Source of the DNA: Bryobacterales bacterium
Lineage (GTDB): Bacteria; Acidobacteriota; Terriglobia; Bryobacterales; UBA6623
Direction: 5' to 3'
DNA length: 64,000 bases
NCBI GenBank assembly: GCA_028819575.1
Contig: JAPPLB010000079.1
Coordinates: forward strand, 1 to 64,000
The notes below the pieces were generated by a model. It saw only the letters and a list, made by a program, of their open reading frames with translations, was not told the DNA's origin and ran no database searches. The translations under genes and the position numbers were made by a program. Shown here in pieces: positions 160-58,704 of this stretch (position 1 is the first letter of the stretch; every line of letters starts with the position of its first letter).

Positions 160-218
160 ACGCCCAACTTTTCCGAGACCCGAAGCCCGCCGGCATCGCG
201 CCGAGCGGGTTTTTTATT
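126..218 (+). promoter_or_regulatory. Histidine attenuator: hairpin, antiterminator and terminator
   Basis: Three mutually exclusive pairings can be read directly. First, GCGCAGC (126-132) pairs perfectly with GCTGCGC (141-147). Second, GCCGGCGG (134-141) is perfectly complementary to CCGCCGGC (187-194), which gives an antiterminator. Third, CCCGC (186-190) and CGGC (191-194) pair with GCGGG (205-209) and GCCG (200-203). That last stem is followed by TTTTTTATTTATT, a Rho-independent terminator. A ribosome stalled on the His codons would cover the arm at 126-132 and free 134-141 to disrupt the terminator. The terminator is about 20 bases before hisI. Confidence 0.75.
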
Positions 219-22386: not shown

Positions 22387-23073
22387 CTAGACGACCGATC
22401 CTTCCTGGATCTCCTCGGAGTTCGTGCCCCGCTCGGTTTCTTTCGGAACGCGATTCTGATCAGCTGCGTCCGCCGTATGTTCCTCTTCATCAAGCTGACG
22501 CGTTTCGCGCCAAGTGTGGGCGATGCGGTGCGCCACCGTGATGTTCGACAGCACGGCGATCACCCATAGGACAGGCGCCATGCGGTCAAAAAGCGCGCCG
22601 ATGATGATCAGCACAATGCGCTCCGGCCTCTCCAGAAACCCCACCTTGCAACTCGGGATACAATTCTCGGCACGGGCGCGCGCGTAACTCGTGAGTATCG
22701 AGCCCGTCATTACAACGGCTGTCAGAACAACATAGAAATAGCGGTTCACACTCGCGTAGTAAACCAGCAACCCCATCAGCAGGATCAGATCGGAATATCG
22801 ATCGAGCACCGAATCGAGGAATCCACCGAAACGCGTCACCTTGTTGCTCTGGCGCGCGACGGGACCGTCTATCAAGTCGAATACTGCCCCGATCACCACC
22901 ACGATGCCGGCCGAGAAGAACTCGCCGCGACCGAACAGCCAAGCGGCGATCCCGTTGATGCCAAGTCCCATGCAGGTCAGCAGATTGGGATGGACTCGGG
23001 CCCCGATCAACAGCTTGACGATCAGTCCCACGAGGTAACCTGCCGCGCTTCCGATTTTTTGGGTAACACCCAT
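22387..23073 (-). CDS. CDP-alcohol phosphatidyltransferase
   Basis: An integral membrane enzyme that transfers a phosphatidyl group from CDP-diacylglycerol to an alcohol acceptor in phospholipid synthesis. The diagnostic motif D-G-x2-A-R-x8-G-x3-D-x3-D is complete as DGPVARQSNKVTRFGGF plus LDSVLDRYSD (about residues 68-94). About six hydrophobic helices follow over 228 residues. The acceptor (glycerol-phosphate, inositol or another) cannot be told from the motif. It lies 35 bases downstream of greA. The C-terminal 35 residues are polar and may be disordered. Confidence 0.88.
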   Translation of the reverse strand: MGVTQKIGSAAGYLVGLIVKLLIGARVHPNLLTCMGLGINGIAAWLFGRGEFFSAGIVVVIGAVFDLIDGPVARQSNKVTRFGGFLDSVLDRYSDLILLMGLLVYYASVNRYFYVVLTAVVMTGSILTSYARARAENCIPSCKVGFLERPERIVLIIIGALFDRMAPVLWVIAVLSNITVAHRIAHTWRETRQLDEEEHTADAADQNRVPKETERGTNSEEIQEGSVV

Positions 23074-23108: not shown

Positions 23109-23582
23109 TCAGCCATCTTGCTCGTGGATCGTCTTCAGCCTCAAAATCTCCATCTCCCGCACCCCGCCCGGCGTGCGGACCTCGGTCACATCGCCCGGTT
23201 CCTTGCCCATCAGGGCGCGTCCAATTGGTGACGTCGTTGAGATTTTTCCGTTCGGAGCATCAACGTCCTCCGACGTCACCAGGTAGTATTGCGTTTCCTT
23301 ATCATTGTCGATGTCGTAAACGACAACCGTAGAGCCGAGCCCGACCACACCCGGACGAATCTTGGTCAGATCGACCATCCTCATGTCGGCCAAGCGCTTT
23401 TTTTTCTTTGCCAGCAGCGCACCGACATAGTCCTGGCGCTCTTTCGCCGCGGCGTATTCGGCGTTCTCACTCAAATCACCCAGTTCGCGCGCTCGCTGGA
23501 TTTCTTTCGGTAGCTCGTTCTTCAGCTCGTACTCGAGCTTCCTGATCTCGTCTTCGAGCTTCTGAATAAAGTCAAGGGCCAT
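23109..23582 (-). CDS. greA: Transcription elongation factor GreA
   Basis: Rescues backtracked RNA polymerase by stimulating cleavage of the transcript 3' end. The start was set at ATG 23582 (MALDFIQKLEDEI); a GTG four codons earlier is possible. The protein is 157 residues. The N-terminal coiled coil carries the tip region LGDLSENAEYAAAKERQ, with the conserved Asp-Leu-Ser-Glu-Asn that acts in the polymerase channel. The C-terminal FKBP-like domain includes TSPIGRALMGKEPGD. The leader contains a terminator-like hairpin (see separate entry). Confidence 0.95.
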   Translation of the reverse strand: MALDFIQKLEDEIRKLEYELKNELPKEIQRARELGDLSENAEYAAAKERQDYVGALLAKKKKRLADMRMVDLTKIRPGVVGLGSTVVVYDIDNDKETQYYLVTSEDVDAPNGKISTTSPIGRALMGKEPGDVTEVRTPGGVREMEILRLKTIHEQDG

Positions 23583-23621
23583 ACTGTCTTTCACTCACGA
23601 TGGTTCACAGGCGGCGGAACG

Positions 23622-23654
23622 AAAAATACCGGTTCCGCAGGCCGCGAACCGGTA
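23622..23654 (-). terminator. Terminator-like hairpin in the greA leader
   Basis: On the minus strand TACCGGTTC (23654-23646) pairs perfectly with GAACCGGTA (23635-23627) across a 10-base loop. It is followed by TTTTTC (23626-23621), the anatomy of an intrinsic terminator. It lies about 40 bases before the greA start codon and downstream of a TATAAT box, so it may attenuate greA. It cannot terminate an upstream minus-strand gene, because the next gene runs the other way. Confidence 0.65.
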
Positions 23655-23730
23655 CCGAAGAGCACTCAATGAGAAACTCCGCACCCAACTTTTCCAGGCA
23701 CTCGCGGGCGCTTCCCTATTATCCGGCTCC

Positions 23731-23736
23731 ATTATA
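23731..23736 (-). promoter_or_regulatory. -10 box of the probable greA promoter
   Basis: Perfect TATAAT on the minus strand. The -35 region (about 23754-23759, CCCGAA) is a poor match. The expected start near 23725 gives a leader of about 140 bases that includes the terminator-like hairpin. Confidence 0.45.
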
Positions 23737-23906
23737 GGATATGCCCCTGGACGTTCGGGTTGAGCGTTGGGGGTGCGGTACAGAAGCAGGCATGATGAAC
23801 AGGAGCCTTTTCCAACCCAAGGATGATACTGAAACGGGTTGGGAGGGCTGGGCCACTGCCGATCAGCTACAATAGCGCCAGTTTCCGATTGGTTCCAACA
23901 GACGCC

Positions 23907-24686
23907 ATGTTGACTCGACGAGCCTTACTCGCAGGTATCGCCGCGGCCGCCTACGCCCAGCAGCACAACTACCCCATCCGCAAGCGCAAGAAGGTCGAGC
24001 GGCTGTTCAAGTCGCCCGACGGCAATCCCAACGGTCTGGAAGCAACCGCCGCGGGTCTGTGGTGCGGCGAGCAGGTGACGGACCGGGCGCATCTGCTCGA
24101 TTGGGAAACGGGCCAGCCTCTCGCCTCCTACGAAACGCAGTCGTCGAACACCAGCGGCATTGCGGCCGGCGGCGGGTTTGTGTGGATGGCCGCGAACGGG
24201 CCGGCGGGGGTGCGTCCTGCGCGGCCTCATGATGTGAAGAAGGGGGGCCGGATCGTCAAGCTGGAAATCGAGACGGGCCGCCATGTGAAAAACTATCGGA
24301 CCCCCAACGGGGGAGGCGTGCACGGCGTGCTGTGGTCGCAGGATTCACTGTGGGTCACGCAATTCGGTCCGAACAAGAACGTCACGCAGACCGACGCCGA
24401 TCTGCGGGTTCAGCATTCCTTTCCGGTGCCGCTGGGGCGAGCCCACGGGCTGGGCTGGGACGGAACGCATATCTGGTGCATGTTCTCGAACGATTTCCGC
24501 ATATTGAAGTTCGACATCGAGAGCGGGCAGGTGCTGGAAGCGATTCAGCTCAACCGGGATGATCCGGATCCGCACGGCATGACCTGGTGGCAGGGCAGCC
24601 TGTACTACTGCGACGCAGGGATTGCGCCGGGGCATCGACAGAATACCAGCCCCTACGCCGGTTACATCTGTAAAATCCATGCCTAG
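23907..24686 (+). CDS. Secreted beta-propeller protein of unknown function
   Basis: 259 residues from ATG 23907 (MLTRRALLAGIAAAAYAQQ), an N-terminus that combines a paired Arg with a short hydrophobic signal segment and may use the Tat or Sec route. The rest consists of repeated short beta-rich segments, each with Trp or Tyr near a turn: AAGLWCGEQ, GGFVWMAANG, SQDSLWVTQFG, GTHIWCMFSN and GSLYYCDAGI. This resembles streptogramin-lyase/Vgb or glutamine-cyclotransferase-type propellers. No catalytic signature could be assigned. A TACAAT -10-like box at 23868-23873 precedes it. Confidence 0.65.
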   Translation: MLTRRALLAGIAAAAYAQQHNYPIRKRKKVERLFKSPDGNPNGLEATAAGLWCGEQVTDRAHLLDWETGQPLASYETQSSNTSGIAAGGGFVWMAANGPAGVRPARPHDVKKGGRIVKLEIETGRHVKNYRTPNGGGVHGVLWSQDSLWVTQFGPNKNVTQTDADLRVQHSFPVPLGRAHGLGWDGTHIWCMFSNDFRILKFDIESGQVLEAIQLNRDDPDPHGMTWWQGSLYYCDAGIAPGHRQNTSPYAGYICKIHA

Positions 24687-58503: not shown

Positions 58504-58704
58504 TCTGCCTTTCTCACCACGCGGCGAGGTGTAGTGCGTGAGAGGGCCGCCAGGACCAGGCGCAAGCCGGGCGGAGGAAAAAGGCGCGAGCCGCTTGGCG
58601 CGCGCAGGCGTACTTGAACCGTACGTCGAGCACGGCAAGCAAGCGCAACGAAGTCATGGCGGTCATATCGCGTGCTTCGACTGTCGGGTGGTGAGAAAGG
58701 CAGG
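58504..58704. mobile_element. MITE family 1, copy F (complete, TTAG target duplication)
   Basis: 201 bp from TGCCTTTCTCACCAC (58506-58520) to GTGGTGAGAAAGGCA (58688-58702); the left and right ends carry the matching change A to C / T to G, so the inverted repeat is kept. Flanked by TTAG on both sides (58500-58503, 58705-58708). The right TTAG contains the TAA stop codon of the DUF1553 gene. Confidence 0.88.

Follow-up and report, generated by a model that had tools for sequence, protein, structure and literature searches.

The closest described counterpart of the element reported here is GraL, from the E. coli greA leader studied by Potrykus, Dylewski and colleagues. According to the available excerpts of PMC6829880, only about a third of transcripts pass the terminator in that leader, and it is through this terminator that GreA represses greA. 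The repression is seen in vivo and not in vitro, so that an accessory factor is suspected, and the mechanism of GraL is described there as still unexplained. Attenuation upstream of greA/rnk is also recurrent, being the seventh family in a survey of 302 genomes (Naville and Gautheret 2010, PMC2965389, in the part available), in which the predicted attenuators of Acidobacteria have almost no associated functions. Our literature search found no report of a terminator in the greA leader of an acidobacterium, and the available excerpts of PMC7815308 held no passage on greA.

The locus lies in a 5.37 Mb draft genome of the Bryobacterales (Acidobacteriota), within the 64,000-nucleotide stretch of DNA that was analysed as a whole (the window). 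Here greA (23112..23582, minus strand, stop codon excluded; 157 aa) encodes a product matching Pfam GreA_GreB (5e-23) and GreA_GreB_N (1e-11); the NCBIfam GreA models are its best matches in that collection (1.8e-40), yet they fall below the curated cut-offs. Many relatives carry a second GreA/GreB-like protein of about 30% identity, and the search of the window's own genome gave no second match. The genome also codes for Rho-like proteins, as judged from Rho_N matches. Downstream of greA, and possibly co-transcribed with it, is a CDP-alcohol phosphatidyltransferase gene (22387..23073, minus strand; Pfam CDP-OH_P_transf, 5.8e-19). The next gene upstream is divergent (23907..24686, plus strand, with an ORF that could begin at 23823) and has no Pfam or NCBIfam match; either start is at least 168 nt from the hairpin described below. 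An earlier note on this DNA, made from its letters, had stated that no upstream gene on the greA strand needs a terminator, and the orientation of ORF 23823-24686 bears this out.

The same note had pointed to a perfect 9-bp stem and five Ts between a TATAAT box and the greA start codon, and the sequence confirms them. On the minus strand, TATAAT (23731-23736) is followed by 148 nt and then by the greA ATG (A at 23582). The box is the predicted -10 element of the greA promoter and is kept in most genomes of the family; no recognisable -35 box accompanies it, the best upstream match to TTGACA reaching only 2/6 positions. Within the leader, TACCGGTTC-GCGGCCTGCG-GAACCGGTA (23654-23627) forms a hairpin with a perfect stem (TACCGGTTC / GAACCGGTA) and a 10-nt loop. 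The next five nucleotides are TTTTT (23626-23622). Hairpin and tail together fold with -17.4 kcal/mol (z = -3.12 against shuffles), RNAfold adding two inner pairs and one outer G-U to the 9-bp stem, while the 141-nt leader as a whole has no unusual stability (z = -1.63). A known riboswitch was rejected, as Rfam covariance models gave no gathering-level match in the 64-kb window and only sub-threshold ones in the leader (E = 0.67 and 2.1). A repeated element or shared operator was likewise rejected, since the palindrome has no second copy in the genome with up to two mismatches allowed.

Terminators were scored with a d'Aubenton-Carafa-type value, d, which combines stem energy and T-tail. The greA-leader hairpin reaches d = 26.3, and the E. 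coli greA leader (GraL) terminator, taken as a positive control in the same scan, scores 23.7. Only 2 of 5000 dinucleotide shuffles of the window leader reach 26.3. Across 191,723 bases of the genome (the window included, both strands) five real sites have d of at least 26, against 0.5 per shuffled set, and the greA-leader hairpin ranks fifth. Strong intrinsic terminators are thus rare in this genome, whereas weak scores are meaningless, since real and shuffled sequence are equal at d of at least 0 (47 versus 47.5 sites). At d of at least 20 there are nine real sites, three of which lie between ORFs. The hairpin with its T run is unlikely to be there by chance. A simple terminator scan restricted to loops of 3-8 nt does not report the site, the loop of which is 10 nt.

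Two other observations came from the same sampling. Of all terminator-like sites in the 192 kb sampled, the strongest (window 186-209, plus strand, d = 56.1) lies 28 nt before ORF 238-612, which we take by eye to be hisI, followed by an ORF that we likewise take to be hisD-like; the site may be a leader attenuator of a his operon, or may mark the 3′ end of an upstream gene. Moreover, an identical 22-nt palindrome with a T-rich tail occurs at window 58584-58605 and at 4546-4567 of L193 (both minus strand). The translations of the minus-strand ORFs over both copies have SPRGEKGRL in common, which suggests an interspersed repeat.

The earlier note had proposed looking for the stem and T run in related genomes. 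Each of the three genomes of the genus has TATAAT, a long leader, the hairpin and T5, and one sister genus has a strong version. In G002, of the same genus (GreA 97% identical), the element is kept with d = 26.3. The third genome, G001 (GreA 76%), keeps TATAAT, hairpin and T5 with a C-A mismatch in the stem that takes d below 0. In G005, from the sister genus, CCGGTCC/GGGCCGG and a T run longer than T5, directly after the stem, give d = 36.2 in the same interval. The gene upstream of greA in G005 looks different and co-directional. The element thus appears to travel with greA and not with the neighbouring gene, since G005 keeps a strong version despite the change of neighbour. A 3′ terminator of the upstream gene was rejected for the window: the neighbour is divergent here, and in G005, where the upstream ORF seems to be co-directional, the element still follows the greA promoter. 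Elsewhere among the relatives, the 11-bp stem of G004 (z = -3.41) shares the CCGGTCC core and lacks a T run, G008 (L035) and G006 (L033) have weak candidates (d = 9.1 and 4.3), and the remaining eight family leaders have none.

A closer comparison with G002 suggests that the whole leader is conserved and the hairpin a little more so. Hairpin and T5 differ at 1/34 positions, the outermost pair changing from G-U to A-U, against 4/75 in the leader before the hairpin, 2/39 after it and 2/42 in the promoter. The upstream spacer has 16/133 changes and the 4-fold sites of greA 12/69. With G005 the pre-hairpin leader is hardly alignable. Covariation was assessed on five hairpins (window, G002, G001, G005 and G004), of which those of the window and G002 come from close relatives and are not independent; the homology of the G005 and G004 hairpins to that of the window depends on the alignment. 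Over 10 pairs, 91.8% of cells pair, against 22-53% in slid registers, and three of the ten pairs have changed on both sides. These hairpins have a covariation score of 0.36; slid registers give no more than 0.16, and 27/500 shuffles reach 0.36. With five sequences the covariation is modest, and is to be read as support for the stem, not proof.

The distribution of the element was followed in 100 related genomes. Two of these (G003 and G080) have no greA match, and a third (G053), in which greA is apparently split with a piece at a contig end, was left out. In the family of the window, the window included, a perfect TATAAT lies 63-148 nt before the ATG in 15 of the 17 genomes with greA; the shuffle test was run without the other two (L038 and L043). 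Of 78 genomes in the neighbouring family f3 (a total that includes L163 of G066, at a contig edge with no upstream sequence), 57 have a perfect TATAAT, and in 51 of these 57 it lies 8-35 nt before the assigned start codon. The greA leader therefore seems to have been lengthened in the window's family, given 63-148 nt there and mostly 8-35 nt in f3. In 15 of the 57 f3 leaders the box is 8-15 nt before the assigned start, and the greA mRNA would be nearly leaderless.

Three of the 15 family leaders with TATAAT have d of at least 20, two of the three being close relatives; the shuffled mean is 0.06 and none of 200 shuffled sets reaches 3. However, 10 of the 15 have no scored T-tailed hairpin, so that in part of the family a leader hairpin must, where it is used at all, have another function. 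In six genomes of the genus g6 (L037, L039, L040, L041, L042 and L044) a long greA-leader hairpin with no T run is conserved, and no double compensatory change was found in it. A strong terminator (d = 34.1) is present in a single one of the 57 f3 leaders, that of G041 (L144), where it lies within the 49 nt that separate TATAAT from the greA ATG; it is apparently of separate origin. In the rest of the phylum greA was matched in 101 of 149 genomes, and the upstream regions of the best-matching 60 were taken. A perfect TATAAT is present in 17 of these 60. Five of the 60 have d above 0 within 200 nt, and in none of the five does the scored site lie between such a box and the start codon. Across phyla, 23 of 80 named greA loci have d above 0 within 250 nt upstream, a number that is inseparable from the 3′ terminators of upstream genes and was not counted as evidence. 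Since most of the family lacks it, neighbouring families have short leaders and the phylum sample holds no strict instance (0/60), the element appears young and lineage-specific, neither ancient nor homologous to GraL.

The promoter-like box, its position, the hairpin, the T run and their conservation in the genus can be read directly from the genomes. With a probability of roughly 0.7, we take hairpin and T run to be an intrinsic terminator within the greA 5′ leader, where premature termination would lower and tune greA output. Of the attenuation proposed in the earlier note, what stands is that the greA leader has an intrinsic-terminator-like hairpin and that the promoter-like box preceding it is conserved in relatives; that termination takes place in the cell is what we infer from this. 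RNA polymerase would start about 7 nt after TATAAT, near 23723, and transcribe some 100 nt. The hairpin (23627..23654) would then fold and the polymerase would be released, in a fraction of rounds, at the T tract (23622..23626), the predicted 3′ end of the short transcript. The remaining rounds would read through into greA, the read-through fraction setting its level.

In prefix folding of the leaders of the window, G002 and G005, an upstream stem-loop forms first and the terminator once the T run has been made; G001 forms a 6-bp version. In the window this stem-loop is predicted at 23671..23716 (minus strand) by the minimum free energy fold of the leader up to the T run, and G001 and G005 also fold one upstream of the terminator, of different sequence. 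Prefix folding yielded no stable upstream competitor that could act as an antiterminator. When the leader of the window or of G002 is folded in full, the arms of the hairpin find new partners 3′ of the T run, a form with no equivalent in G001, and this re-pairing is relevant only to transcripts already past the terminator. On the simplest reading of the folding, the terminator would be partly efficient and always available, because no stable upstream antiterminator was found and re-pairing can come only after read-through. The likeliest controller would be the state of the elongating RNA polymerase, GreA itself included, and by analogy GreA probably feeds back on termination in its own leader.

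Four other accounts of the hairpin were weighed against premature termination. It is rather unlikely that the leader is simply a structured 5′ UTR, whose hairpin protects the mRNA or controls translation and whose T run is incidental. Strong leader hairpins with no T run do exist in the family (the 11-bp stem of G004, z = -3.41, and the six g6 genomes), and in the full leaders of the window and G002 the arms find a partner 3′ of the T run. However, the re-paired form is missing in G001, the g6 fold has no double compensatory change, and an incidental T run would hardly be kept as T5 in 3/3 genomes of the genus, with a longer one right after the G005 stem. We consider it improbable that the terminator serves a trans-acting small RNA of about 100 nt that shares the greA promoter by chance. 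An RNA of that length with a folded 5′ part is predicted, but its pre-hairpin part is as variable as the other parts of the leader (4/75 relative to G002) and can hardly be aligned with G005. There is very little to be said for a palindrome that arose by chance or for a regulator-binding DNA site, although the stem is a perfect palindrome; 2/5000 shuffles, the conservation of the stem with its compensatory changes and the presence of a T run on just one of its sides argue against both, and a shared operator would not be expected to have its palindrome nowhere else in the genome at up to two mismatches. Leader-peptide attenuation, in which translation of a possible 11-codon upstream ORF (VPGKVGCGVSH; GTG start, 23701-23666, minus strand) decides whether the hairpin forms, is scarcely credible, for although the ORF is open in G002 in the same frame with one residue changed, it has no run of diagnostic codons and no evident antiterminator partner, and in G001 a GTG in a comparable position opens an ORF of 27 codons that runs through the terminator; the 11-codon ORF is probably non-functional.

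Premature termination in the greA leader, if correctly read, adds an apparently unrelated lineage to the bacteria with a terminator between the greA promoter and greA. Should such leaders keep arising with no shared sequence, this would favour the terminator itself, read by a GreA-modulated polymerase, as the sensor. We put forward only tentatively, as somewhat doubtful, the wider idea that premature-termination feedback on greA arose independently in Acidobacteriota, perhaps several times (in the genus and G005, and separately in G041), because, through the effect of GreA on the polymerase, a terminator in the leader could serve directly as a GreA sensor; the released RNA of about 100 nt may also act in trans. 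An independent instance would be a useful second test case, because the mechanism of GraL is still unexplained (PMC6829880, in the excerpts available).

With GraL the locus shares an intrinsic terminator between the greA promoter and greA, of similar computed strength (d = 23.7 for GraL and 26.3 here), and a divergent upstream gene, dacB in E. coli. However, GraL RNAs are 37-59 nt long (PMC6829880, available excerpts) against about 100 nt predicted in the window, the hairpin lies 103 nt from the ATG in E. coli and 44 nt here, and a two-sequence comparison found no homology beyond a 10-nt exact match (E = 0.026). These ten identical bases (window 23622-23631, minus strand, and the E. coli greA leader L207) cover the end of the stem and the T run, and are probably a coincidence. 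Ancient homology with GraL is not supported by this match and the sparse distribution. Where the earlier note had left the likeness to GraL as independent or ancient, an independent origin is favoured; an ancient one is not, given the 10-nt match and the absence of the element from most of the family, order and phylum sample. Like the attenuators of Naville and Gautheret (PMC2965389, in the part available), the terminator has the orientation of greA, is less than 300 nt from its start codon and is closer to greA than to the upstream gene. Theirs belong to Proteobacteria, bacilli and Clostridia and have a clear antiterminator, whereas the window is acidobacterial and no clear upstream one was found in it. 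Taken together, these comparisons place a premature terminator before greA within a known, recurrent theme, of which the acidobacterial instance is apparently new and of no demonstrable shared ancestry with those already described.
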